Of a DNA stretch of 64,000 nt, positions 1 to 60,922 are shown in pieces (within the stretch, counting starts at the first letter, position 1; each line of letters opens with the position of its first letter). This stretch comes from Acidobacteriota bacterium (GTDB lineage Bacteria > Acidobacteriota > UBA6911 > RPQK01 > JAJDTT01): NCBI GenBank assembly GCA_028874215.1, contig JAPPLF010000066.1, forward strand, positions 1 through 64,000, in the 5' to 3' direction. The position numbers and the translations under genes are program-made. The notes under the pieces are model-generated. The model saw only the letters and a program-made list of their open reading frames with translations. It had not been told where the DNA came from and did no database searches.

Positions 1-15
1 AAATCAATGATTTGA

Positions 16-393
16 AGCGAAAATATCGGTCAGGCAGGCTGGAAGTTCAGATTAGCCTCTGTTGGATTGTATGGTGTCCTCTCCCACTCGGTCGCCCGAC
101 GAACCCGCGAAATAGCGGTTCGCTTGGCAATGGGGGCTGAACGCGACCACACGGTATGGCTGATCCTCAGCCAGGCCCTCGTTCTGGTCACCATCGGTCT
201 CGCAATTGGTATCGCCACTGCGTTGGCGGGGATTCGTACGTTGCGGAATTTCGTCGCAGAATTGGGACCGGCCGATCCCATGATTTTCCTGATTCCCGCC
301 TTCGTGATTGTTGTGGCCTCTCTGTTCGCCTGCGCGGTACCCGCCTACCGAATCACCAGGCTGGAACCCATGGACGCGTTGCGCCATGAATAG
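16..393 (+). pseudogene. C-terminal remnant of a MacB/FtsX-type ABC permease
   Basis: The readable frame gives about 125 residues ending RLEPMDALRHE. It contains the SVGLYGVLSHSVARRTREI stretch and three membrane segments typical of the C-terminal FtsX domain of large (~800-residue) ABC permeases common in Acidobacteriota. An in-frame TGA at 13-15 closes the frame just upstream. The residues before RLASVGLYG do not look like the preceding helix, and neither other forward frame continues the domain. I read it as a truncated or frameshifted gene rather than one merely cut by the window edge, though the upstream part is out of view. The regulator at 421 is the usual neighbour of such permeases. 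Confidence 0.6.
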
Positions 394-420
394 TTCCCCG
401 CAGATCTGACAACGAAGTCG

Positions 421-1791
421 ATGTTTGGTACCCGTTCTCAAAAGCCCCGTGTCCTGATCGCCGATGATCAGGAAGACGTGCTCCATTCTCTTCGGCTACT
501 GCTGAAGAGCGAGGATTACGAGGTTACGACGGCCGACACTCCCGCCCGCGTCCTGGAGTTCGCTCGGCGGCTCGACCTGGACGTCGTCCTGATGGACATG
601 AACTATGCCCGGGACACCACCTCGGGCCGGGAGGGACTGGATCTGCTCACCCAACTGCAGGTCCTGGACGGCTCGCTGCGGGTCGTGGTCATGACCGCCT
701 GGGGCTCCATCGACCTGGCCGTGGAGGCCATGCGGCGCGGCGCCCGGGACTTCATACAAAAACCCTGGGAGAACGAGCGCCTCCTCACCGTCTTGAAGAG
801 CCAGATCGAACTCCGGCGGGCGTTACGCCAGGGCCGCCGGTTGGAGGAGGAGAACCGGGTCCTCCGCTCCCGGCAACACACCCGCTTGATCACCCAGTCG
901 CCGGTCATGCAACCGATTCTGGACCTGATCGCCCGGGTGGGCCCGTCCGACGCCCACGTCCTGATCACCGGCGAGCACGGCACCGGAAAGGAAGTGGTGG
1001 CGAGGACGTTGCACTCGGTCTCCGCACGCTCCTCCAAACCATTGGTGGCCGTCAACCTCGGAGGACTCTCCGAAGGCGTCTTCGTCAGCGAGATGTTCGG
1101 TCACGTCAAGGGCGCCTTCACCGACGCCCGCACGGACCGGATCGGCCGCTTCGAACTGGCCGACGGGGGGACGCTGCTGCTAGACGAGATCACCAGCATT
1201 CCGGTGAGCCAACAGGCCAACCTGCTCCGCGTCCTGGAGAGTGGAGAGATGCAACGTGTCGGATCCTCCCGAACAAGGCACGTCGACGTGCGGGTGCTGT
1301 CGGCCACCAACGCCGACCTGAAGCGGGAGGTGGAGCGCGGCCGTTTCCGGGAGGATCTCCTGTTTCGTCTCAACACGGTGGAGATTCATCTGCCGCCGCT
1401 CCGGGACCGGGACGATGACATCCTTCTGTTGGCCAACCACTTTCTGGGCCGATACAACCAGAAATACCGGAAACGGCTGGACGGATTCACCGAACCGGCA
1501 CTGGCCTCCCTGGCTTACTACTCCTGGCCGGGAAACGTCCGGGAACTCAAACACGTGGTGGAACGCGCCACCCTGCTCGCCCAGGATTCCTCCATTTCGG
1601 TCCAGGACCTGAGTCTCCCGGCGGACTCCCCATTCTCCAATCCGCTGGAGATGATGACCCTGGAGGAAGCCGAAGGCGTCCTGATCGGCAAGGCCCTGGC
1701 CCGCGCCGGCGGCAACGTGAGCCACGCGGCTCGAAGCCTGGGGCTGAGCCGGACCGCCCTCTACCGGCGCATGGAAAAACTCGGGCTATGA
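421..1791 (+). CDS. NtrC-family sigma-54-dependent response regulator
   Basis: The 456-residue protein has a receiver domain (about 10-125) with acidic pair D15/D16 and phospho-acceptor D59 in VVLMDMNY. An AAA+ sigma-54 activator domain follows, with Walker A GEHGTGKE near 184-191. The sigma-54 contact loop reads GAFTDA near 231 instead of the usual GAFTGA. A Fis-type helix-turn-helix lies at about 425-456. When phosphorylated it should activate sigma-54 promoters by ATP hydrolysis. The next gene, a histidine kinase, starts inside its stop codon, so the two are almost certainly cognate. The Asp in the GAFTGA loop may weaken sigma-54 contact, and regulators with altered loops can act on sigma-70 promoters. 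Start ATG 421 has only a weak ribosome-binding site. Confidence 0.93.
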
Positions 1792-3101
1792 ACCGGTTCG
1801 GATTCCAGGCGCGGATCGTCCTGATCTCCCTTGCCGCCGGTCTCCCCGCCTGCGCCGCGCTGCTGGTCCTGCTCTGGACCGGCGATCATGAGCCCCGGGT
1901 GCGCTACGGCCTCTCGCTGCTGGCTGTGGGAACCCTGTCGGGCGGCCTGATCCTGCTTTACCGGAAGTTGACGTTTCAGTTTCGGACCCTCGCCAACGTG
2001 GTCTCGGCGATTCGTGAAGGGGATTTCTCCATCCGGGCCCGAGGTGGACCCGACAAGGGACTGGGCGAGTTCGCGGCGGAGCTGAACGTTCTGGGCGAGG
2101 TCCTGCGCCGGCAACGCCTGGGAGCGGTCGAGGCGGCCGCCCTGCTGCAGAAGGTGATCAAGGAGATCGATGTAGCAGTCTTCGCTTTCGACGACGGATG
2201 GCGCTTGCGCCTCATCAACCAAGCCGGGCAGAGGCTCCTGGGGATTCCGGGGGAAGAAGCGTTGGAGAAGACAGCCGCGGACTTGGACCTGAAGGAATGC
2301 CTGGAGGGAGAGCCGGTCCGGACGCTCCGAATCCGGTTGCCCGGGGGAAGCGGCCGCTGGGGAATGCGCCGGACCGTGTTTCGCGAGGAGGGACGGCCCC
2401 ATCATCTGGTGGTCCTGGCGGACCTGAACCAGACCCTGAGAGAGGAGGAGCGGCAGGCTTGGCGGCGGCTGATCCGCGTGTTGGGACATGAATTGAACAA
2501 CTCCCTGACCCCCATCAAGTCCATCGCCGGGAGTCTGGAATCCCTCTTGGAGCAAGATCTTTCGAATACGGATCGCGAGCAGGACCTGCGGGAAGGTCTC
2601 AGCGTCATCTCCTCGCGGGCCCAAGCGCTGAGCCGGTTCATGGGCGCCTATTCCCGGCTCGCCCGGCTGCCGGCCCCGAAAAAACGCCCGATCTCCATCG
2701 AAGACTCGGTTCACAAGGTGGTGAGCCTGGAGACCCGGATGCCGGTGACGATTCGAGACGGCCAGCCGGTTCGGTTTCGGGCCGACCCGGATCAATTGGA
2801 GCAGTTGCTGATCAATTTGGTCCGGAACGCAGTCGACGCCACGGCGGAGACCGGAGGGGGCGCCAGCATCGGCTGGAGGCGGGTCGGCGACCAGTTGGAA
2901 GTCTCGGTGGAGGACGAGGGAAAGGGACTGGCCGACACCGCCAACCTGTTCGTTCCCTTCTTCACCACCAAGCCCCAGGGAAGCGGCATCGGCTTGGTGC
3001 TGGCGAGGCAAATCGCCGAAGCCCACGGCGGCTTCCTCAGCCTGACCAATCGAAGGCAGACGCCGGGCTGCAGGGCCTTACTGGTGTTGCCCATGGCATA
3101 G
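1788..3101 (+). CDS. NtrY-like membrane sensor histidine kinase
   Basis: The 437-residue protein has two hydrophobic segments near the N-terminus (about 8-30 and 40-60) with almost no periplasmic loop. A HAMP-like stretch, a PAS-like region (about 120-215) and the phospho-acceptor motif HELNNSLTPIK (His about 235) follow. The ATPase domain shows an N box (NLVRNAVDAT, about 343), DEGKGL and GSGIGLVLAR. Asn after His-Glu-Leu and the LTPI stretch are typical of NtrY-type kinases. It overlaps the response regulator by four bases (ATGA), so the two are translationally coupled. With so little external loop, the signal is probably sensed in the membrane or through the PAS domain; the ligand is unknown. 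Confidence 0.93.
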   Translation: MNRFGFQARIVLISLAAGLPACAALLVLLWTGDHEPRVRYGLSLLAVGTLSGGLILLYRKLTFQFRTLANVVSAIREGDFSIRARGGPDKGLGEFAAELNVLGEVLRRQRLGAVEAAALLQKVIKEIDVAVFAFDDGWRLRLINQAGQRLLGIPGEEALEKTAADLDLKECLEGEPVRTLRIRLPGGSGRWGMRRTVFREEGRPHHLVVLADLNQTLREEERQAWRRLIRVLGHELNNSLTPIKSIAGSLESLLEQDLSNTDREQDLREGLSVISSRAQALSRFMGAYSRLARLPAPKKRPISIEDSVHKVVSLETRMPVTIRDGQPVRFRADPDQLEQLLINLVRNAVDATAETGGGASIGWRRVGDQLEVSVEDEGKGLADTANLFVPFFTTKPQGSGIGLVLARQIAEAHGGFLSLTNRRQTPGCRALLVLPMA

Positions 3102-3191
3102 TCGGCAAGATTCCAGCCCGGAGTCCTCAACGGTCACGGATTGACGTCAGTGCTACCCAAGGTTACCGTGGCGCCAAGAGGACACCCTTTG

Positions 3192-3470
3192 ATGGTCAAG
3201 CACTCGATTACTCTCACTGACGAGCAGCACGCCTTTGCCAAGACGTTGGTGGATACCGGACGGTACGCCAGTGTCAGTGCGGTCATTCAACAGGGCATTG
3301 AAGACCTGAGACAGCGTTTGGCAGTCGCTGACTTGGATCGTATGGCGCTCTGCGAAATCCTGTCCCGCCGCCGGGCCGGCGAGTTTGTCGGGGCGGACGA
3401 AATGAACGAGCGGTTGAGAAGGATGCTTGCCGGCAAGCGTCCGGCTATCGTCTCCGATCCTACCTCTTGA
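3192..3470 (+). CDS. ParD-like ribbon-helix-helix antitoxin, apparently orphan
   Basis: About 92 residues starting MVKHSITLTDEQHAF. The pattern (beta strand, then FAKTLVDTGRYASVSAVIQQGI and a charged C-terminal tail) matches ParD/CopG-family antitoxins, where the N-terminal ribbon-helix-helix binds operator DNA and the tail wraps the ParE toxin. I chose ATG 3192 over the in-frame upstream start because it begins at the conserved strand. No ParE-like gene follows; the next gene runs convergently and overlaps its end by 11 bases. It is therefore an orphan antitoxin, or a regulator that lost its partner. Confidence 0.7.
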   Translation: MVKHSITLTDEQHAFAKTLVDTGRYASVSAVIQQGIEDLRQRLAVADLDRMALCEILSRRRAGEFVGADEMNERLRRMLAGKRPAIVSDPTS

Positions 3471-4041
3471 CAGCAATCACCAGCCCCGTAGACCAGGACA
3501 GGCGTAACGACGTCAACGCCGGGTGATTCTGTATTCGTTCCAGTAGCGCGTCCACTTTCGGGGGGTGATCGGGAGGCCACGCTGGAGCCGGCAGCAGGTC
3601 GTCGATGACGTAGATTCCTCCGTCGTTCAAAAGATCCACAGCCTTCTGGAAGTCCCAGAATTTTCCAGCCCAGGCGTCGGCGAAGATCAGGTCGAACCGC
3701 GACCCCCGCAGGGAATCCATGACGTCTGCACTATCTCCTTGGCGGAAAACTACACGGGCGTCCGTTCCCAGATAGCGTTTCGCCACCTCCAGGCAGGCCG
3801 GGTCAAGGTCGACCGTGATCAACCGTGAGTCCCGATCCATCCCGTCGAGGATCCAGGCCGTCGCCAGTCCCGTCCCGGTCCCCAACTCCAGGAGCCGGCC
3901 ACCCGGTTTGGTGGCCGCCAGAGTCCGGAGCAGGACCCCGGTCTGGTAATCGGAACCCATGTTGAACTCCAGCCGGCGGGTGTCCTCTTCGATCTCCGGG
4001 AGAATCTTCGGTGGCTCGATATTCGTGCTGTCGTCCATCAT
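3460..4041 (-). CDS. SAM-dependent O-methyltransferase-like protein
   Basis: About 193 residues with a class I methyltransferase fold. Motif I is LLELGTGTGLAT, followed by the acidic strand end TVDLDPACLEVA and FDLIFADAWAGK, which resembles the metal-binding region of catechol/caffeoyl-CoA O-methyltransferases. The C-terminus reads GIYVIDDLLPAPAWP. Starts at 4041 or 4038 both follow a GGAG; the longer upstream extension is low-complexity and unlikely. It sits alone in a lower-GC patch with no biosynthetic partners, so the substrate is unknown. It overlaps the convergent ParD-like gene by 11 bases. Confidence 0.75.
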   Translation of the reverse strand: MMDDSTNIEPPKILPEIEEDTRRLEFNMGSDYQTGVLLRTLAATKPGGRLLELGTGTGLATAWILDGMDRDSRLITVDLDPACLEVAKRYLGTDARVVFRQGDSADVMDSLRGSRFDLIFADAWAGKFWDFQKAVDLLNDGGIYVIDDLLPAPAWPPDHPPKVDALLERIQNHPALTSLRLSWSTGLVIAVKR

Positions 4042-4605
4042 TTTTCTCCAGTCCCGTCCGTCAGAAAAGAAAAGAAATGGGGGGAACAGTGCCATTCCTC
4101 CGACAAATGGCGCCGACAACCTTCCAAGCCTAATGCAATTCCCAGTAGTTGCGTCAATGAAAACGTGAGTCGGCACAATCACCCAAAAATGACCCGCCTA
4201 TCGACATTAGTTTCCGCTGAGTCTCCAGAGATTCTCCCCATTCCCAGTTCGCATTCCGGCCACGGATGATCGAACCGTGTCACGATATGGGGCTCGGACA
4301 GCGAGTGTTAGGCACCGGCTCAGTTGTTGCAAATGGACTACTGGCCCGCGAATTCTACAAGGTGGCAAGTCGATCCGAACATCTCAATCTTCCATCGAGC
4401 GCCCGAACCGAGTGGACAGCGTAGCCGAACGAAGCCGGGTGACATGATTATCCGCCGAAGCTGGATACCGGATTCCCTGATGGTCCGTCTGACCATACCG
4501 GCTCTGTTCACAGGAACTCGTGTTGATGAACCGATCCTCGCGGTCGAGTATGCGTTCGGTGTATGTGAGAGAATTCGTTGTTTCCCGGAGACTTTCCCGT
4601 TTGCG
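4042..4605. other. 564-bp region without a convincing gene
   Basis: No open frame here has a recognisable domain, plausible codon use and a ribosome-binding site together. The longest frames (for example 4324-4617 on +) give protein with no hydrophobic core or motif. By eye the G+C is lower than in the flanking genes. I see no tRNA, tandem repeat or clear inverted repeat. It may hold the promoter of the methyltransferase near 4050-4150 and possibly decayed coding DNA. Confidence 0.4.
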
Positions 4606-4980
4606 TCACAGACTTAGGGAACGGATGATTTCATGTGCCCATTTCTCGCCGTCCCTCAAATCCATCTTGGTGATTGCAGGAAGGTCGCGAAACACGATTT
4701 GGGACACACGCCTCTTGGTCCCCGCCACGGTGCGCTCATAACCGATCACCCAGCGAAAAAGGCTCCCTGGGCGCATCTTGGCGAAATCTTCGCCTGAGAG
4801 TTCGGCCAGAGGAATAACCGCCTCTTCCTCTTCTTGTTCTAGGCCCGCTGTCGAGTCAACCAATCGAGCTACGAAATCTGTTTCTCCGATCTCAAGGACG
4901 AATCCCTCCCACTCTTGTAGCGCACTGACTCCACTAATCTCTGGAACTATCCGCAGATGACCCATCCTTCCCTTGAGCAT
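4606..4980 (-). CDS. Conserved-looking hypothetical protein, ~124 aa
   Basis: I do not recognise a named family. The protein is soluble and acidic, with a beta-rich N-terminal part (WEGFVLEIGETDFVARLVD), a Glu-rich loop (EQEEEEAVIPLAEL) and a C-terminal part FRWVIGYERTVAGTKRRVS ending in an amphipathic helix. The order resembles a small beta-barrel found in many environmental genomes, but I cannot assign a role. ATG 4980 follows GAGG at short spacing; ATG 4965 is an alternative start. It lies alone in the lower-GC patch with no partner downstream. Confidence 0.6.
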   Translation of the reverse strand: MLKGRMGHLRIVPEISGVSALQEWEGFVLEIGETDFVARLVDSTAGLEQEEEEAVIPLAELSGEDFAKMRPGSLFRWVIGYERTVAGTKRRVSQIVFRDLPAITKMDLRDGEKWAHEIIRSLSL

Positions 4981-5111
4981 CAACCTCGAACGCGGTTATG
5001 TTGCCACTCTCCAACTTTATTTGCTACCTTCATTCTACCTCGACTCCATCCGGACCGATCTCTGGCCGGAGAAGGCCCCAACTGGTATAGTCTCGGCTCC
5101 CGAGAGAGCCC

Positions 5112-5600
5112 ATGGGAATCTCCCCGGATCTTTTTCGCAAAGTTGCCGGCTGTTTCGCCACCGGCGTGACGGTGGTCACGACCCAGGACCGGGAGGGTAT
5201 TCCCTACGGCCTCACCGTCAATTCGTTCACGTCGGTTTCCCTGGATCCCCCTCTGGTTCTGGTCTGTCTGGACTACGGTCTCACCGGATTGGACATCTTT
5301 TTGGAGAGCCGCCGCTTCGCCGTGAACATCCTGACCAAAGACCAGCAGGATGTATCGAACCATTTCGCCAGCCGGGGAACCGACCGGTCTCAGGGGCCCT
5401 ATGCCCCGGGTGAAACCGGCGTTCCCGTGGTGACCGGCTCCATGGCCTGGTTCGAGTGCGAGACTGTCCACGAGTACGCCGGAGGAGATCACGTCATCCT
5501 GGTGGGGGAGGTCAAGGCCGCCCGGCTTGGTGACGCCGAGACCGATCCCCTCCTCTTCTTTCGGGGCCGCTACCGGGACATTTCCTCGGCAGACGCCTGA
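5112..5600 (+). CDS. Flavin reductase-like FMN-binding protein
   Basis: The 162-residue protein matches the flavin reductase-like (DIM6/NTAB) domain: FRKVAGCFATGVTVVTTQD, then the FMN-phosphate-binding region GLTVNSFTSVSLDPPLVLVCL, then FAVNILTKDQQDVSNHFAS. Members reduce free flavin with NAD(P)H for a partner monooxygenase or act as small flavoenzymes. No oxygenase gene is adjacent, so the role is open. A -10-like TATAGT lies at 5086-5091 and GAGAGA precedes ATG 5112. Its 3' end overlaps the convergent ABC ATPase gene by 31 bases. Confidence 0.88.
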   Translation: MGISPDLFRKVAGCFATGVTVVTTQDREGIPYGLTVNSFTSVSLDPPLVLVCLDYGLTGLDIFLESRRFAVNILTKDQQDVSNHFASRGTDRSQGPYAPGETGVPVVTGSMAWFECETVHEYAGGDHVILVGEVKAARLGDAETDPLLFFRGRYRDISSADA

Positions 5601-6565
5601 AACTCCCGGCCCGTCTCCCGGATGAAGACGTCTTCCAGGGTCGGCTTGCCCAAGGAGACCGACTGGATCTCACCCGAGAACTCTTCCATCAGGTCCCGGA
5701 TCAACTCGTGGCCACGGCGTTGCTCCATGCGGACCGCCCCATTCACCACCGACGCGGGCCCCGGAAATCGCGCCTGAATTCGCGCCTTCAGACCTTTGGG
5801 GTTGCGGGCATGCACGACGATCACGTCGCCGCCGATCCGGTCCTTGAGTTCGACCGGGCTCCCCTCGGTCACGACCCGGCCCTGGTCCAGGATGACGAGG
5901 CGATCGCAGACTTCCGCCTCTTCCATCAGATGGGTCGTGAAGAGGATGGTGATCCCGGCCGAATCGCGAAGGTCGGTCAGATGTTCCCAGAATTCCTGGC
6001 GGATGTGAGGATCCAAGCCCGCCGTGGGTTCATCCAACAGCAGGATCTGCGGACGATGCAGCAGGCCCTTGGCCAGTTCGGTCCGGCGCCGCATCCCGCC
6101 GGAGAGAGTCCGGACCCTGGAGTTGCGCCTCCCGCCGAGATCGAAACGCTCCAACAATTCTTCGATCCTGGTCTTGAGACGAGCCCCGCGCAACCCATGG
6201 AGACGGCCCTGGCAGACCAGATTCTCGGCCACCGTCAATTCCTGGTCCAGGCTGTTGGTCTGGAAGACGATCCCCATCAGCCGGCGGACCCCGGCCGGGT
6301 CCGTTGCCGGATCCAGACCCGCCAACCGGACCTTTCCGCCGTGGGGCTGAAACAAGGTGCAGAGAATCCGGAACAGGGTGGTCTTGCCGGAACCGTTGGG
6401 ACCCAACAGCCCCAGGATCCGGCGGCGGTCCAGGGAGAAGCTGATCCCGTCCAGGGCCTTGCGGTCACCGTAACGGAAGGCGAGATCCCGGACGTCGACG
6501 AAGGAGGCCGACGCGGCGTCGAGGTTTGATTCGGACCCTGTGGACCGGGAGGCTGGCGTTCGCAC
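5570..6565 (-). CDS. ABC-2 type transporter ATP-binding protein without a permease
   Basis: The 331-residue protein is a complete ABC ATPase: Walker A GPNGSGKTT, a Q-loop (FQTNSLDQELT), signature RTLSGGMRRR, Walker B LLLDEPTAGLD and a switch His in FTTHL. The C-terminal extension resembles the DrrA/NodI subfamily that pairs with ABC-2 permeases. GTG 6565 is preceded by GAGGAAGG at seven-base spacing, 13 bases after ctaB, so it is the last gene of the haem A operon. The usual permease is absent: the next gene downstream is on the opposite strand. It may work with a permease elsewhere or be left from a larger ctaAB-ABC operon. Confidence 0.92.
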   Translation of the reverse strand: MRTPASRSTGSESNLDAASASFVDVRDLAFRYGDRKALDGISFSLDRRRILGLLGPNGSGKTTLFRILCTLFQPHGGKVRLAGLDPATDPAGVRRLMGIVFQTNSLDQELTVAENLVCQGRLHGLRGARLKTRIEELLERFDLGGRRNSRVRTLSGGMRRRTELAKGLLHRPQILLLDEPTAGLDPHIRQEFWEHLTDLRDSAGITILFTTHLMEEAEVCDRLVILDQGRVVTEGSPVELKDRIGGDVIVVHARNPKGLKARIQARFPGPASVVNGAVRMEQRRGHELIRDLMEEFSGEIQSVSLGKPTLEDVFIRETGREFQASAEEMSR

Positions 6566-6578
6566 TGGCGTACCTTCC

Positions 6579-7421
6579 TCAGAGTCGATCCAGCGCCATC
6601 AGGACCATGAGAAGGGGGAGGTAGACCACGGAGGTCTTCAGCAGCGTGTGAGCCGCGGCGCGGGAACGGGTCCGGTTCACACGGAGGCCCGACCAGAGGA
6701 GACCGCCGCCCAGGATGACGGCGCCCGCCGCATAGAGAGTACTGCTGATCCCCACCTGGGTCGGAAGCAGGCTGACGGGCACCAACAGCAGGATGAAGAT
6801 CAGGATCTGGCGCGCCGTCTTTCTTCCCCCGGGGTCCATCTGGGGCAACATCCGGAATCCCCCTCGCCGATAGTCGTCTCTATAGACCCACGCAATCGCC
6901 AGAAAGTGAGGGTACTGCCAGAGGAAGAGCACGGCGAAGAGGACCCACGCCCCCGGATCCAACGTCCCTCTGGCGCCCGCCCAGCCCAGGAGCACGGGAG
7001 TGGCGCCCGGGAAGGCGCCGATGGTGGTGCAGAGGGGCGACTTTTTCTTGAACGGGGTATAGCCGAAAAGGTAGAGGGCGGCCGACGCCAGCCCCAGACC
7101 TCCAGTGAGCCAATTCGCCGCCGCTCCCAGATAGAGCCCACCGCCCAAGGTGAGCACCACTCCGAATACCAGCGCCTTTGCCGGCGTGATCCGGCCCGAA
7201 GGGAGCGGCCGGCTTCGGGTCCGCTGCATCCGCGCATCCACCTCTCGCTCCAGGTACTGGTTCGAGACCGCGCAACCGGCGGCCAGCAGGGTCGTCCCCA
7301 AGATGGTGTGGACCAGAAGAACGAAATCGATGTCGGTGGAAGCCAGGTAGAAGCTGACCAACGCCGTCAGGGCCACCATCAACGTGACCCGGGGCTTCGT
7401 CAACTCCAGATAAGCCAACAT
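6579..7421 (-). CDS. ctaB: Protohaem IX farnesyltransferase (haem O synthase)
   Basis: This UbiA-family membrane prenyltransferase is about 280 residues with multiple membrane helices. It carries both Asp-rich motifs: NQYLEREVDARMQRT with SRPLPSG in the first loop, and YRDDYRRGGFRMLP in the second. It adds a farnesyl group to haem B to make haem O, which CtaA then oxidises to haem A for the aa3 oxidase encoded upstream. ATG 7421 has GGAG at nine-base spacing and gives the family-typical start MLAYLELTKPRVT; a TTG lies nine bases upstream. Confidence 0.95.
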   Translation of the reverse strand: MLAYLELTKPRVTLMVALTALVSFYLASTDIDFVLLVHTILGTTLLAAGCAVSNQYLEREVDARMQRTRSRPLPSGRITPAKALVFGVVLTLGGGLYLGAAANWLTGGLGLASAALYLFGYTPFKKKSPLCTTIGAFPGATPVLLGWAGARGTLDPGAWVLFAVLFLWQYPHFLAIAWVYRDDYRRGGFRMLPQMDPGGRKTARQILIFILLLVPVSLLPTQVGISSTLYAAGAVILGGGLLWSGLRVNRTRSRAAAHTLLKTSVVYLPLLMVLMALDRL

Positions 7422-7473
7422 GCGATCCAACTCCGGGGACGAACACCGTCACCGTGAAGAGTGGCGGCCCCTT

Positions 7474-8478
7474 TCAACCGGCCGCTACGGAGCGACCACT
7501 CGCAGCCGGCTCGCCGGCACTCGAAAAAGAGAGCTGCAAGGTGAGCACCAGGGCCGTCACCAGGAGAATTGCCCCCAGCGCCAGGTGCGAGGTGGTCAGG
7601 AAGACCCCCAACGGGAACGGTTGTGTTGCCCCCATTCTCACGACGCGGGCCCATAGTGCACCAACACCCAATACCAACTGAAGCAACACCAGAATGACGA
7701 GGGCGTAGGCTCCACCCGTGAATGCTCCGAGCCTCGGGTTCTTGAACACCTTGACGGCGGCCATGATGAGAAGGCCGCCGGCCAGCACGGCGCCGGCCAT
7801 GTGGGTGAGGAGCGCGTGGGTCACCAGAGTGACCCCCTTGCTGCCCTCGCTGGTCCCCGTGTGCCGCACCAGAGCACCCAGAATCAACTGGAGATAGACG
7901 GAGCCCGTGGCCACCGCGCAGAAAATGGCGTTGCGCCGGTTCTCCCCGGGACAGAAGGCGGAAAGGCTGCGCCCCCGCCAATTCGAGGACGTGACCAGTG
8001 CGATCACCACCACGGCGCAGAAGAACAACTGCGCGAGACAGGCATGGAGGACCGAAATGGCGACGGGCAGGAAAAACAATACGGTGAGGCCGCCCAGCAG
8101 GGCCTGGGCCAGGACCATCGCCACCGCGATCCAGGCCAGACGCCGGACTCGGGGACGCTTCTCCACCCGGCCCAACCAAATGGCCAGAATCAAGGTCAGA
8201 ATCGCCACCGTCGCAGCGATCAGGCGGTGGGAATGCTCATAGAACACCCCTCCCACCATCTCGGGCATGAGACTGCCGTGGGAGAGGGGCCAATCCGGGA
8301 CCGAAAGGCCGGCGTCGTTGCTGGTGACCAGGGCCCCCGCCACCAGAAGGAGGAAGGTGGCCGCGGCGGTCACCACCGCGAACCTGTGGACTGTATGAAG
8401 ACTCTGGGGCCCCACGCTGGAACTGCCTTGTGAGATTCGGCCTGTCGGGAGGGGGAGAACATTCTTGTCTCCCCCCAC
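7474..8478 (-). CDS. ctaA: Haem A synthase, COX15/CtaA family
   Basis: The 334-residue protein has about eight membrane helices in two similar halves. The haem-ligand histidines are visible in EHSHRLIA, VLHACLAQ, HALLTHMAGA and TTSHLALGA, the expected pairs in each half. SNDAGLSVPDWPLSHG is typical of the family's first loop. It oxidises the methyl group of haem O. It is followed by ctaB and preceded by the copper-site lipoprotein and the bc-type complex, in line with oxidase maturation. The predicted start is GTG 8478 and the first 25 residues are polar, so the true start could be slightly downstream. Confidence 0.93.
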   Translation of the reverse strand: MGGDKNVLPLPTGRISQGSSSVGPQSLHTVHRFAVVTAAATFLLLVAGALVTSNDAGLSVPDWPLSHGSLMPEMVGGVFYEHSHRLIAATVAILTLILAIWLGRVEKRPRVRRLAWIAVAMVLAQALLGGLTVLFFLPVAISVLHACLAQLFFCAVVVIALVTSSNWRGRSLSAFCPGENRRNAIFCAVATGSVYLQLILGALVRHTGTSEGSKGVTLVTHALLTHMAGAVLAGGLLIMAAVKVFKNPRLGAFTGGAYALVILVLLQLVLGVGALWARVVRMGATQPFPLGVFLTTSHLALGAILLVTALVLTLQLSFSSAGEPAASGRSVAAG

Positions 8479-8561
8479 TCTTTTTCTCCCGGTCCCGCGT
8501 CACGTGACCGTGACTTGGGCGTGCGGCGGCAACAATGCCGCCGCTCCTCGCTGAATGCGGA

Positions 8562-9344
8562 TCAGCCGGAGAACTCGAAGCTGACTTCCTTGGCCTCGCT
8601 GGCCTGGACCGTCACCTGCTGCTCCTGGACCCCGAACTTCTCGTGCCAGGCCTCGATGACGTAGTCGCCGGGCGGAAGGTTCTCGATCGAGAAGGCTCCG
8701 TCGGTTCCGGTGACGGCATAGTAGGGATGAGGCACGACGCCGATGTAGGCCTTCATCCAGGGATGCACGTTGCACTTGACCGGAATCATGACCTCGGCCC
8801 GGGGAAACGACCGGACCAGCGGCTTGCCCTTGGCCCGCTGCGACTGGTTCCACTCCCGGTTGTTCCTGGGAAGGGGATGAACGTTGTGGGTGGTCCCGTC
8901 GCTGTTGAGAACGTGGAGCTTCTGCCGGGTCTGGATTCCCAGGACATGGGGGGTGTAGATACACCCCTTCTGGTCCAGCGTGACCGGGTCGGAGGGGGTG
9001 TCGAAGCCGTACTGCTCGAGTCCGCTCTTGACCCAGACGAAGGTGTTGATCAGAGCGCCGCCATCGCCGATCAGGACATCCTGACTGCGGACAATGCCCG
9101 AATGCTCCTTGACGCAGACCGGATCGGCATCCATGCGAAGGCGGGCGTTTTTCGGCGTGTCGCCACCGAAGCTGACCATGCCAGACACCGAACCGGCCTG
9201 GGACAGGTCGGGGGCCGGCTTCGCGTCTGCCGCCGGCGCCGGCGCCTCGTCGGCTGCGGGCTCCGCGCCGCCGCCGCCGCCGCCGCATGACGCCGCCAGC
9301 AGTCCAGCCATCACCAAAACGAAAATAAACTGTGCTCTCTCCAT
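8562..9344 (-). CDS. Periplasmic lipoprotein with cupredoxin-like copper site and Ig-like tail
   Basis: The 260-residue protein has a lipobox, LLAAS before Cys20, followed by a Gly/Ala/Pro-rich linker, so it is an outward-facing lipoprotein. The core has HNVHPL and later KCNVHPWMKAYIGVV. A His plus Cys-x2-His-x2-Met is the ligand set of a type 1 copper centre, although the spacing is not the textbook plastocyanin one. The last 70 residues (TGTDGAFSIENLPPGDYVIEAWHEKFG) resemble a carboxypeptidase regulatory-like fold. ATG 9344 follows GGGAGAGAAG. Between the octahaem cytochrome and ctaA, it may carry electrons or supply copper to the oxidase; that role is inference. Confidence 0.75.
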   Translation of the reverse strand: MERAQFIFVLVMAGLLAASCGGGGGGAEPAADEAPAPAADAKPAPDLSQAGSVSGMVSFGGDTPKNARLRMDADPVCVKEHSGIVRSQDVLIGDGGALINTFVWVKSGLEQYGFDTPSDPVTLDQKGCIYTPHVLGIQTRQKLHVLNSDGTTHNVHPLPRNNREWNQSQRAKGKPLVRSFPRAEVMIPVKCNVHPWMKAYIGVVPHPYYAVTGTDGAFSIENLPPGDYVIEAWHEKFGVQEQQVTVQASEAKEVSFEFSG

Positions 9345-9432
9345 GTTCTTCTCTCCCGGAAGATTGTCTATCCCGAACGGGCGGTCTGTGCATTGCGGCC
9401 CGTGACGCCTCATGTCACGGGCCCGTCGTAGA

Positions 9433-46454: not shown

Positions 46455-46544
46455 TGGCGGAGGAGGTAGGATTCGAACCCACGGTGCCCTTTCGGACACA
46501 GCGGTTTTCAAGACCGCCGCCTTAAACCACTCGGCCACTCCTCC
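46455..46544 (-). tRNA. tRNA-Ser (anticodon UGA), CCA encoded
   Basis: Read on the minus strand, the acceptor 5' side GGAGGAG pairs with CTCCTCC at 46459-46465. The anticodon stem GCGGT/ACCGC encloses loop CTTGAAA with anticodon TGA. A long variable arm (GTGTCC-GAAA-GGGCAC) marks a class II serine tRNA. The T arm GTGGG-TTCGAAT-CCTAC, discriminator G and an encoded CCA (46455-46457) complete it. The serS gene lies 2.3 kb away on the same strand. Confidence 0.96.
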
Positions 46545-57170: not shown

Positions 57171-58540
57171 AATTGCGTCCCCTGTTTCCCTCCCAGGAAA
57201 CCCTGGGCATCCACACCGACCTTTACGAATTGACCATGCTCGCCGCCTACTTCGAGGCCGGGTTCGCCGAGGAGCGCGCCACCTTCGAACTCTTTGCCCG
57301 GCGACTGCCGGCACGGAGGAGTTTTCTGGTTGCCGCCGGATTGGAGCAGGCGCTGCACCAGGTTCTGAACCTGCGCTTTCCGGAAGACGTCCTGGCCTGG
57401 CTGCGGACCCTGGAGGTCTTCCGCGGGGTCTCCCCGGGGTTCTTCGACTACCTCAGTGATTTCCGGTTCAGCGGGGATCTCTGGGCCTTGCCCGAGGGGA
57501 CTCCCTTCTTTCCCCACGAACCGGTTCTCCAGGTCAGGGCCCCCGTCATGGAGGCGCAACTTCTGGAGACCTACCTGATCGCGTCGATCAGCTACCAGAC
57601 GACGGTGGCCACCAAGGCGAGCCTGCTCTGCCGCGCCGCCCGGGGCCGGCCGGTGATCGACTTCGGCAGCCGCCGCGCACAGGGGCCCCAGGCCGGCCTC
57701 CTTGCGGCCCGCGCATCGTTCATCGGCGGCTGCGACGGCACCAGCAACGTTCTGGCCGGGTATCGACTCGGCATTCCCCTCTACGGCACCATGGCCCACT
57801 CCTTCATTCAATTCTTCGACGACGAGAAACGCGCCTTCGAGACCTTCCAGCGGTCTTTTCCCCGGCACTCGATTCTGCTCGTGGACACTTATGACACGCT
57901 CCGCGGCGTCAGGAACGCGCTCAGGCTCGCCTCGCCGGCGCAGGGGGTGCGGGTGGACAGCGGCGATTTGGACCGAACGGCGAGGGCGGCCCGCAAGCTC
58001 CTGGACCAGAGCGGACACCATGAGACACGGGTCCTGGTCAGCGGGGATCTGAATCCGGAGAGGGTGAAGGCGCTGACGGAGGCGGAGGCGCCCATCGACG
58101 GCTACGGCGTGGGAACCGACCTGGTGGTCTGCCCGGAAGCCCCGACCTGCGATCTGGTCTACAAACTGGTGGAGAGGCTCCACGAGGGCCGGGCCCTGCC
58201 CCGAATGAAGATCAGCGGGGAAAAGGGGTCGTTCCCTCTCCGAAAGGAACTCTATCGCCACCGCGAGGGCAGGGAATTCGTTGGGGACCTCCTGGCGGCG
58301 GAAGGAGAAGCCGCACCAGACGGATATTCGTCGTTGCTTGTCAAATACGTGGAGGGCGGCGAAACCAATGTCGATCTTCCCACCGTCCGCCAGGTGAGGG
58401 ACGACGCGCGGACCCAGTTGGATGGCTTGCCGGAACGCCTGTGGCGGCCGGAGGGCGAGGCGTATCCGGTCCGGCACAGCCCACGGTTGAGGGAGGCCGA
58501 GCGCTCACTTCGAAGGTCGCATCTCGGAGACCGCCGGTAG
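57167..58540 (+). CDS. pncB: Nicotinate phosphoribosyltransferase
   Basis: The 457-residue protein has TDLYELTMLAAYF at the start, FGSRRAQGPQAGL and FIGGCDGTSNVLAGY. The catalytic His is in GTMAHSFIQFF, and VRVDSGDL and GVGTDLV bind phosphate. It makes nicotinate mononucleotide for NAD salvage. It overlaps purB by four bases, and its 3' end overlaps the convergent kinase-deaminase gene by 36. Confidence 0.92.
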   Translation: MKLRPLFPSQETLGIHTDLYELTMLAAYFEAGFAEERATFELFARRLPARRSFLVAAGLEQALHQVLNLRFPEDVLAWLRTLEVFRGVSPGFFDYLSDFRFSGDLWALPEGTPFFPHEPVLQVRAPVMEAQLLETYLIASISYQTTVATKASLLCRAARGRPVIDFGSRRAQGPQAGLLAARASFIGGCDGTSNVLAGYRLGIPLYGTMAHSFIQFFDDEKRAFETFQRSFPRHSILLVDTYDTLRGVRNALRLASPAQGVRVDSGDLDRTARAARKLLDQSGHHETRVLVSGDLNPERVKALTEAEAPIDGYGVGTDLVVCPEAPTCDLVYKLVERLHEGRALPRMKISGEKGSFPLRKELYRHREGREFVGDLLAAEGEAAPDGYSSLLVKYVEGGETNVDLPTVRQVRDDARTQLDGLPERLWRPEGEAYPVRHSPRLREAERSLRRSHLGDRR

Positions 58541-59551
58541 CGCCGCAGATTCTCCCACGGTCAACCGGCGACACACGACCGACGCCTCCCGGAGGAGGCG
58601 AAACGATCTCCCGGAAAGGGGATACTCCAGGTTGTAGACCACCTCGACGACCCCCGAGTTGATGATCATCTTGCTGCAGGTCAGGCAGGGCGAATACGTC
58701 GTATACAGAACGCCCCCGTTCACGCTGACCCCATGGTAAGCCGCCTGGGTGATGGCATTCTCCTCGGCATGGGAACAGAGGCAGTCATCCAATTGGGTGC
58801 CGCTGTCCGCCGGCCCTGCACACCGGGGGCATCCCCCCTCGAAACAGTTTCGAGTGCCGCGGGGAGTGCCGTTGTAGCCCGTCGATATGACCCGGAGGTC
58901 GCGCACGATGATGGCGCCCACCTTGCGCTTGATGCAGTTGCTCCTGAGCGCGACCACTTGAGCCAGTTTCATGAAATAGGGGTCCCAGCCGGGCCGGGTC
59001 ATCTTGGGAGCCGTTCGCTTCAACCACTCGGCGACCTTGCTCCAGAGGTCCTGCTTGGTGCCGTTGTTGGCGAAGCTGACGTTGGCCAACCGGCCAGTGG
59101 CCAGGAGCTGTTGGCCCTGCGTGTCCGGACTGGACAGCTCCTGCCGTTCCAACTCGAGAAACCGCCCGAACGAGACGGGATCGCTCTCGCGGCCCCGGGC
59201 GCAGACGCGCTGATGACGAACTTCAGCCTCCGCCTCGATCGCCACGAGGTAGAAATCGGGCTGCCGTGAAAACGCCCGGACCTCCGCCGGGTGACGGAAG
59301 GAGTCCACGACATAGTTCCGGTCCGCTTCCAACTTCGCCAGGATCTCCTGCGCCAGGTGGTCGCTGCCGTACTTGGCCCGAAGATCCCTCCCGACATGGA
59401 TGAGACGCGGCCGCGTCACTTCTTCCCCTCGCCGGACGACTTCGTCGCGGATGACGTCCGAGAGGGACCAGAATCCGAAGCCCTTGCTCTGCAGGTAGTC
59501 GGCCACGACGCCCTTACCGGAGCCGTTGCGACCCGTGAGCCCAATGATCAC
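58505..59551 (-). CDS. P-loop kinase / dCMP deaminase-type fusion protein
   Basis: The 348-residue protein has a kinase-like half (about 1-185) with Walker A GRNGSGKG at 7-14, similar to dephospho-CoA or nucleotide kinases. The deaminase half (about 195-348) has the zinc motifs SHAEENAI and SPCLTC, and a Cys cluster CFEGGCPRC for structure. Start GTG 59551 (MIIGLTG) follows AAGAG. A kinase fused to a dCMP-type deaminase recalls the AvcD/DcdV phage-defence enzymes that deplete dC nucleotides, but those are longer. The alternative is a housekeeping dCMP deaminase with a vestigial kinase. Confidence 0.85.
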   Translation of the reverse strand: MIIGLTGRNGSGKGVVADYLQSKGFGFWSLSDVIRDEVVRRGEEVTRPRLIHVGRDLRAKYGSDHLAQEILAKLEADRNYVVDSFRHPAEVRAFSRQPDFYLVAIEAEAEVRHQRVCARGRESDPVSFGRFLELERQELSSPDTQGQQLLATGRLANVSFANNGTKQDLWSKVAEWLKRTAPKMTRPGWDPYFMKLAQVVALRSNCIKRKVGAIIVRDLRVISTGYNGTPRGTRNCFEGGCPRCAGPADSGTQLDDCLCSHAEENAITQAAYHGVSVNGGVLYTTYSPCLTCSKMIINSGVVEVVYNLEYPLSGRSFRLLREASVVCRRLTVGESAALPAVSEMRPSK

Positions 59552-59698: not shown

Positions 59699-59741
59699 TG
59701 CAGGGACGGTCGAATGCCGTGATGACTTTCGCCACGGGCTG
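59699..59741 (+). repeat. 43-bp direct repeat, copy A, before the acyl-CoA dehydrogenase
   Basis: This copy matches 61041-61083 in 40 of 43 bases. It contains ACGG/CCGT and CCGTG/CACGG arms that cannot pair at the same time, so two alternative hairpins are possible. It sits immediately upstream of a -10-like box (59743-59748), so it is in the promoter rather than in the transcript from that box. Confidence 0.75.
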
Positions 59742-59742
59742 C

Positions 59743-59748
59743 TATATT
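59743..59748 (+). promoter_or_regulatory. Extended -10 box TATATT of the acyl-CoA dehydrogenase gene
   Basis: GCTGCTATATT includes the extended TGC. Transcription would start about one base before GTG 59756, so the mRNA is expected to be leaderless. The -35 position falls inside repeat copy A and is poor (TGATGA). Confidence 0.45.
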
Positions 59749-59755
59749 CGTCGCC

Positions 59756-60922
59756 GTGGCGGAAAACCTGGATTTCATGCGTCTTGACGACCTGCTGACG
59801 CAGGAGGAAAGGCTGATTCGAGACAGCGTCCGTTCGTTCGTCGAAGAACGGGTCCTGCCCGTCATCGAAGACCATTTCCAGGCCGGCACGTTCCCCCTGC
59901 AACTGGTGGATCCCATGGCGCGCCTCGGCTACCTCGGGGCCAGCTTGACCGGTTACAACTGCGCCGGCCTGAAACCGGTGGGCTACGGCCTCATCATGCA
60001 GGAGCTGGAGCGGGGCGACAGCGGGCTGCGCAGCTTCGTCTCGGTCCAGAACGCCCTGGTCATGTATCCCATCCACCGTTTCGGCAGCGAGGAGCAACGC
60101 GCCGACTGGCTGCCCCGGCTCCAGGCCGGGAGGTCCATCGGCTGCTTCGGCCTCACCGAACCGGACTTCGGATCGAATCCGGCCGGGATGCGGACGCGGG
60201 CGAGGCGGACCGGCGGCGGGTTCGTGCTGAACGGAAACAAGGCGTGGATCACCAACGGCAGCATCGCCGACGTCGCCATCGTCTGGGCGCGCCTGGAAGG
60301 AGAGGGTATCCGCGGCTTTCTGGTGGAACGCTCCGACGGCGGATTCACCACCAGGGACTACCGCCACAAGCATTCGCTGCGGGCCTCGGTCACCTCCGAG
60401 CTGGTCCTGGACGACTGCCGGATCCCCGAAGACCGTCTCCTGGCCGGGACGACCGGCCTGAAGAGCGCCCTCATGTGCTTGAACAAGGCCCGGTACGGCA
60501 TCGCCTGGGGGGCTCTGGGGGCGGCCATGGCCTGCTACGAGACCGCCCGGCGTTGGACTCTGGAAAGATGCCAGTTCGGCGGCCGCCCCATTGCGAGCCA
60601 CCAGCTGGTCCAGCGGAAACTGGTCTACATGTTGACCGAGATCACCAAGGGCCAGCTTCTCACCTACCGGCTGGGACAACTCATGGATCAGGGCAAGTGC
60701 CGGCACGACCAGATTTCGCTGGCGAAGCGCAACAACGTCGCCGTCGCCCTCCGGATCGCGCGTCTGGCCCGGGATCTGTTGGGCGCCAACGGCATCTTGT
60801 CCGAGTATCCGGTCTTTCGCCACATGTCGAACCTGGAAACGGTTTCGACCTACGAGGGAACGCACGACATTCACACCCTGATCCTGGGCCAGTCCATCAC
60901 CGGAATCCCGGCGTTCGATTAA
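59756..60922 (+). CDS. Acyl-CoA dehydrogenase, glutaryl-CoA dehydrogenase-like
   Basis: The 388-residue flavoenzyme has GCFGLTEPDFGSNPAGM (FAD/substrate loop), FVLNGNKAWITNG, and the catalytic Glu in STYEGTHDIHTLILG. RSFVSVQNALVM resembles the Arg/Ser substrate pocket of glutaryl-CoA dehydrogenases, which oxidise and decarboxylate glutaryl-CoA in lysine and tryptophan breakdown. The start GTG 59756 has no ribosome-binding site, matching the leaderless promoter. The gene is bracketed by the two copies of the 43-bp repeat and stands alone otherwise. Confidence 0.9.
   Translation: MAENLDFMRLDDLLTQEERLIRDSVRSFVEERVLPVIEDHFQAGTFPLQLVDPMARLGYLGASLTGYNCAGLKPVGYGLIMQELERGDSGLRSFVSVQNALVMYPIHRFGSEEQRADWLPRLQAGRSIGCFGLTEPDFGSNPAGMRTRARRTGGGFVLNGNKAWITNGSIADVAIVWARLEGEGIRGFLVERSDGGFTTRDYRHKHSLRASVTSELVLDDCRIPEDRLLAGTTGLKSALMCLNKARYGIAWGALGAAMACYETARRWTLERCQFGGRPIASHQLVQRKLVYMLTEITKGQLLTYRLGQLMDQGKCRHDQISLAKRNNVAVALRIARLARDLLGANGILSEYPVFRHMSNLETVSTYEGTHDIHTLILGQSITGIPAFD

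Follow-up and report, generated by a model that had tools for sequence, protein, structure and literature searches.

The 348-residue protein studied here, a P-loop kinase fused to a dCMP deaminase, is likely to be a housekeeping bifunctional enzyme of the dCMP branch point, in which the kinase, with (d)CMP as its predicted substrate, replaces a missing Cmk. Its gene lies in the window, the whole stretch of 64 000 nucleotides of DNA that was analysed. We observe the domain anatomy, the conserved catalytic residues, the linkage of this kinase to dCMP deaminases and its mutual exclusion with Cmk. The original prediction, which was made from this DNA alone, had offered two readings, a possible nucleotide-depleting defence gene and a dCMP deaminase of the ordinary kind to which a kinase had been added. 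The second comes close to our best reading, in that the protein appears to be a housekeeping one, with the difference that the kinase is now proposed as a Cmk substitute. In the part of the literature covered by our search, we found no account of the fusion or of such a Cmk replacement.

Gene and domain anatomy

The ORF is a real gene in an Acidobacteriota genome (Table 1). Its coordinates and strand (58505–59551, minus) had been predicted correctly, as had its size of about 350 residues. The GTG at 59551 is assigned as the start codon on the basis of the ATG or GTG that relatives have in this position and of the extended −10 element 7 nt upstream. Pfam matches AAA_17/AAA_18 to residues 3–124 of the fusion protein and PF00383 to residues 189–306 (E = 4e-24). 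Twenty-eight fusion proteins can be aligned from end to end; the Walker A, SLSD and DSxR segments, the LID-type arginines, HAE/HGE and PCxxC are conserved among them, which bears out the prediction that both catalytic sets are intact. Within the kinase family of the fusion, Lys13, Arg47, Arg58, Arg112, Arg115 and Arg119 are kept in all 117 aligned sequences and the canonical GxxxxGK spacing is found in 116 of the 118 full-length ones.

Table 1. Features of the fusion gene and of its promoter (positions refer to the window).
Feature	Position	Strand	Remarks
Kinase–deaminase fusion CDS	58505..59551	-	348 aa; P-loop kinase and dCMP deaminase; GTG start
N-terminal kinase domain, residues 1–180	59012..59551	-	Pfam AAA_17/18; alignment with standalone homologues; fold match to 3lw7, TMt 0.85
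Walker A GLTGRNGSGKG, residues 4–14	59510..59542	-	Lys13 invariant in 117 kinases
DSFRHPAE motif, residues 83–90	59282..59305	-	Segment also well conserved in AvcD
LID-type arginines Arg112, Arg115, Arg119, Arg121	59189..59218	-	Arg112, Arg115 and Arg119 invariant in 117 kinases
C-terminal dCMP deaminase domain, residues 184–332	58556..59002	-	PF00383, E = 4e-24; fold match to S. mutans and T4 dCMP deaminases
Catalytic His-Ala-Glu, residues 261–263	58763..58771	-	His and Glu invariant
PCLTC zinc motif, residues 288–292	58676..58690	-	Both Cys invariant
Extended −10 element TGCTATAA	59559..59566	-	7 nt upstream of the fusion start codon; leaderless-type promoter

The AlphaFold model of the fusion is confident (pLDDT 89.2, pTM 0.78). 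Its kinase half matches the fold of the AMP-bound adenylate-kinase-related protein 3lw7, and its deaminase half that of the dCMP deaminases 2hvw, 5c2o and 1vq2; with its H[AG]E and PCxxC active site and this fold, the C-terminal domain has the characteristics of a zinc dCMP deaminase. The nearest solved structures for the kinase belong to the uncharacterized archaeal kinase-like proteins UPF0200/PRK08356 (3h0k and 3lw7; profile match 1.4e-25, fold TMt 0.85), but the fusion scores only 59 bits against the NF006226 cut-off of 189 bits. The deaminase half shares its domain, zinc motifs and fold (TMt 0.74–0.88) with ComEB, T4 Cd and DCTD. Unlike these separate proteins, the fusion has a GGCPRC segment in its deaminase, which clades with those of other fusions, and it reaches 104 bits with the ComEB model TIGR02571, below the curated cut-off of 219 bits.

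Linkage of the kinase to dCMP deaminases

The genome collection (84 980 species) was scanned with the kinase alone and the best 80 loci were analysed. In 69 of these 80 a dCMP deaminase accompanies the kinase, fused to it in 41 and lying in the flank in 28, and 11 are without one. According to their record titles, the 80 loci come from Acidobacteriota, Omnitrophota, Deltaproteobacteria/Myxococcota, Aminicenantes, KSB1 and Margulisbacteria and, among the archaea, from Micrarchaeota, Woesearchaeota, Diapherotrites, Aenigmarchaeota and marine Euryarchaeota. Six Acidobacteriota genomes (G089, G115, G325, G234, G402 and G307) have the kinase and the deaminase as separate genes adjacent in tandem; in four others (G039, G040, G054 and G055) the two genes are far apart or on different contigs. 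The partner deaminases, bacterial and archaeal, are spread over several deaminase lineages in the tree, and PF00383 is present in all seven neighbouring deaminases checked. The AU test on a Woesearchaeota fusion (L174) gave a p value of 0.046, and this fusion is probably independent of the main fusion event. In genome G008 the kinase, which is nested in the fused clade, has been kept and the deaminase lost, and no Cmk is present.

Loss of a stop codon can create a fusion by chance, without a functional unit and without bearing on the chemistry of either half, and the four genomes with distant genes are what such an origin would allow. We find this explanation scarcely credible, since the linkage recurs across several lineages of deaminase, in different orientations and in more than one domain of life, and fusion has probably happened more than once.

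Two loci stand somewhat apart. A MAG titled Klebsiella pneumoniae (L134, CAMDBH010000099.1) contains a kinase and a deaminase that resemble their counterparts in Myxococcota and marine archaea, and is probably a mislabelled MAG or contig. On a viral-classed contig (L194, IMGVR_UViG_3300020195_000962, positions 456–1313, plus strand), a deaminase 60% identical to that of the window follows what is left of a kinase, shortened, degraded and without Walker A, a possible parallel to decay of the AvcD type.

Mutual exclusion with Cmk

In a first census of 45 genomes, Cmk was above the cut-off solely where the kinase was missing. A count over 396 Acidobacteriota genomes gave 114 with the kinase only and 265 with Cmk (PF02224) only; the two never occurred together, and 17 genomes had neither, in some cases probably because of assembly gaps. 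Presence and absence in these counts were read from MAGs, and phylogeny was allowed for up to family level only; at that level the kinase occurs in 36 families and Cmk in 48, with none shared. Five weak or partial matches to the kinase profile (<75 bits), taken to be paralogues or fragments, were not counted; each of these genomes has Cmk, and scoring the matches as positive would give five overlaps. Within the window's own class, genome G022 (f11) has Cmk and lacks the kinase. The window protein itself has no significant match to PF02224, and no Cmk was found in G000. A set of 50 named genomes with the kinase, almost all of them from outside the Acidobacteriota, includes 40 without Cmk above the cut-off; the control genomes have it in 13 of 14 cases. 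Two Omnitrophota (L108 and L131) combine the kinase with a strong Cmk and eight other named kinase genomes, mostly of DPANN archaea, show weaker Cmk-type matches, so that the exclusion is not universal.

The simplest reading of this distribution is that the kinase provides the CMP/dCMP kinase reaction, which we therefore predict for it. It would resemble Cmk in the proposed reaction, in belonging to the P-loop NMP kinase fold class and in its complementary distribution over genomes; it differs in being a CoaE/UPF0200-like protein and in its linkage or fusion to a dCMP deaminase. A standalone homologue matches the archaeal (d)CMP kinase model weakly (22.9 bits). Against the CMP-kinase reading, none of the families nearest to the kinase (UPF0200, PRK08356, CoaE and AK1) is known as a CMP kinase. 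Nor is Cmk strictly indispensable to all bacteria, as E. coli cmk mutants live, and its absence is thus no proof of replacement.

A housekeeping dCMP deaminase might instead be joined to a kinase of another substrate or to a regulatory P-loop domain that senses nucleotides (candidate ligands include dUMP, UMP, dephospho-CoA and a modified dNMP), with the exclusion of Cmk arising indirectly. The position of the kinase nearest to UPF0200, with weaker similarity to CoaE and AK1, would agree with this, as would the DPANN archaea and the two Omnitrophota that carry both the kinase and Cmk-type proteins. We nevertheless judge it unlikely, although still a serious alternative: no overlap with Cmk in 114 kinase-bearing Acidobacteriota genomes is hard to explain indirectly, the invariant kinase and LID residues argue for more than a sensor, and in G008 the kinase has outlived the deaminase. 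Tmk is separately present in 50 of 52 genomes, which also speaks against this alternative and rules out the kinase as a Tmk replacement. Cytidylate_kin2 (PF13189) is too patchy to be a CMP kinase common to all these genomes and was rejected in that role, with five or six matches per genome in some Acidobacteriota (G039, G054 and G044) and none in others, including G000.

Proposed function at the dCMP branch point

Two routes start from dCMP: phosphorylation leads to dCDP and dCTP, and deamination leads to dUMP and dTTP. In the fusion, a single polypeptide would carry out both reactions. We infer the substrate, the activity, the direction and any channelling of the fusion as follows. The N-terminal domain would be an ATP-dependent NMP kinase that fills the role of Cmk, with CMP and dCMP as its likeliest substrates, and the C-terminal zinc domain would convert dCMP to dUMP, feeding thymidylate synthesis. 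NMP kinases work in both directions, so the kinase could also run backwards, in which case the fusion would drain dCDP via dCMP to dUMP; alternatively, it may set the division of dCMP between dCTP and dTTP. Most fusion genomes have a DCD-family dCTP deaminase (for example, G000:C49:23495-23953) and mostly lack a true dUTPase, which is present in the separate-gene genomes G039, G040, G054 and G055. As a consequence of the DCD-family enzyme, dUMP may have two sources in most fusion genomes, and the fusion as sole source of dUMP was ruled out.

Promoter and gene neighbourhood

Of the 22 fusion genes scanned, 20 have an extended −10 element at 7–9 nt before the start codon. The 204 nt upstream of the fusion in the window show no excess structure, their folding being equal to that of shuffles (z = 0.01), and gave no match in Rfam, a database that may not include AvcI. 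The leaderless-type −10 together with the lack of excess structure upstream makes a leader RNA of the AvcI type very unlikely. The small RNA like AvcI that the original prediction had suggested looking for upstream was thus rejected as a candidate; the −10 element, 7 nt from the start codon, leaves no room for it.

The fusion is flanked by a convergent nicotinate phosphoribosyltransferase gene on one side and by a divergent acyl-CoA dehydrogenase gene on the other. The neighbours are housekeeping genes with no defence system found among them, in agreement with the earlier remark that no defence island is adjacent. That remark had been accompanied by signs that would point to an ordinary deaminase, among them thymidylate genes as neighbours and conservation of the fusion in relatives. 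Thymidylate genes are absent next to the fusion; the fusion itself is conserved, being single-copy and vertically kept in nearly all members of the window's class.

A second leaderless-type extended −10 (approximately 59741–59758, plus strand) stands directly before the start codon of the divergent acyl-CoA dehydrogenase gene and, with such elements before both divergent genes, leaderless mRNAs may be common in this lineage. A tRNA-Ser (TGA) at 46455–46544 on the minus strand is the sole tRNA and the sole Rfam match in the window.

Relation to AvcD/DcdV

Kinship with AvcD/DcdV had been part of the original prediction, and two parts of it hold, the pairing of the domains and a remote homology. 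In both proteins a P-loop domain at the N terminus precedes a dCMP-type deaminase with HAE and PCxxC motifs. The fusion aligns colinearly with the anti-phage deaminase model NF041025 (E = 5e-40) and with the PADLOC dCTPase model (E = 1e-53). Its NF041025 score of 137.7 bits is below the 400-bit cut-off, whereas six AvcD references score 400–488 bits. In hhalign the kinases match the AvcD P-loop domains with 99.5% over 173 columns (E = 8e-23), and one and the same solved structure is nearest to both. From this profile–profile match and the shared structure, the AvcD P-loop domain is, at the level of sequence comparison, a full-length homologue of the kinase in which the kinase residues are degraded. 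The six aligned AvcD P-loop domains keep the scaffold residues Ser31, Arg58, Asp83, Glu90, Gln147 and Asn162; Arg35, Arg47 and Arg119 are lost and Arg115 is mostly lost. None of 14 AvcDs, read from printed sequences, has the canonical GxxxxGK spacing. The inactive AvcID mutant combines S49K with E376A (PMC10511110).

The fusion is compact (348 aa versus 468–627 aa in AvcD), has an intact canonical Walker A and intact LID arginines where those of AvcD are degraded, lacks any sign of an RNA antitoxin, and is a vertically inherited, single-copy housekeeping gene across its class, not sporadic, mobile or tied to defence genes as would be expected of AvcD/DcdV. Judged by these features it is not an AvcD/DcdV member. 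The deaminase tree places AvcD apart from the fusion deaminases and favours grouping the latter with housekeeping dCMP deaminases, the outcome that the original prediction had named as telling against a defence role, but the AU test does not reject a joint clade (p = 0.64), and a claim that the AvcD deaminase is clearly separate was dropped.

Such a possible joint clade, together with the shared domain order, the colinear model matches and the homologous P-loop domains, would speak for a compact AvcD/DcdV-type anti-phage gene depleting dC nucleotides during infection. We regard such a gene as very improbable here, and the predicted defence role is not upheld: besides the low NF041025 score, the kinase is intact, the gene is vertical, single-copy and nearly universal in the class, its neighbours are housekeeping genes, its promoter is of the leaderless type, the upstream region shows no excess structure, and the same kinase also exists as a separate gene.

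With the fusion read as a housekeeping enzyme, we suggest tentatively, and with somewhat less than even confidence, that its kinase represents an unrecognized (d)CMP kinase family with no relation to Cmk at family level, present in Acidobacteriota, Omnitrophota, Myxococcota, marine group II/III and DPANN archaea and fused to or in an operon with dCMP deaminase, and that the AvcD P-loop domain is a degraded relative, the defence enzyme having arisen from a housekeeping enzyme of the dCMP branch point. The family would supply a candidate gene for the missing CMP/dCMP kinase step in much of the Acidobacteriota and several other phyla, and a likely origin is thereby proposed for the P-loop domain of AvcD. 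The PADLOC dCTPase model PDLC02373 matches the compact fusions with E values of 1e-53 to 1e-61 and also picks up a standalone kinase with 7e-22, so defence counts in kinase-bearing lineages may be inflated by false calls unless a strict score cut-off is applied.

AvcD genes themselves were encountered on two alphaproteobacterial plasmids (L067, positions 1–6952, and L068, positions 4527–9398), near multiubiquitin and ThiF genes, and each is followed by a small hypothetical ORF.
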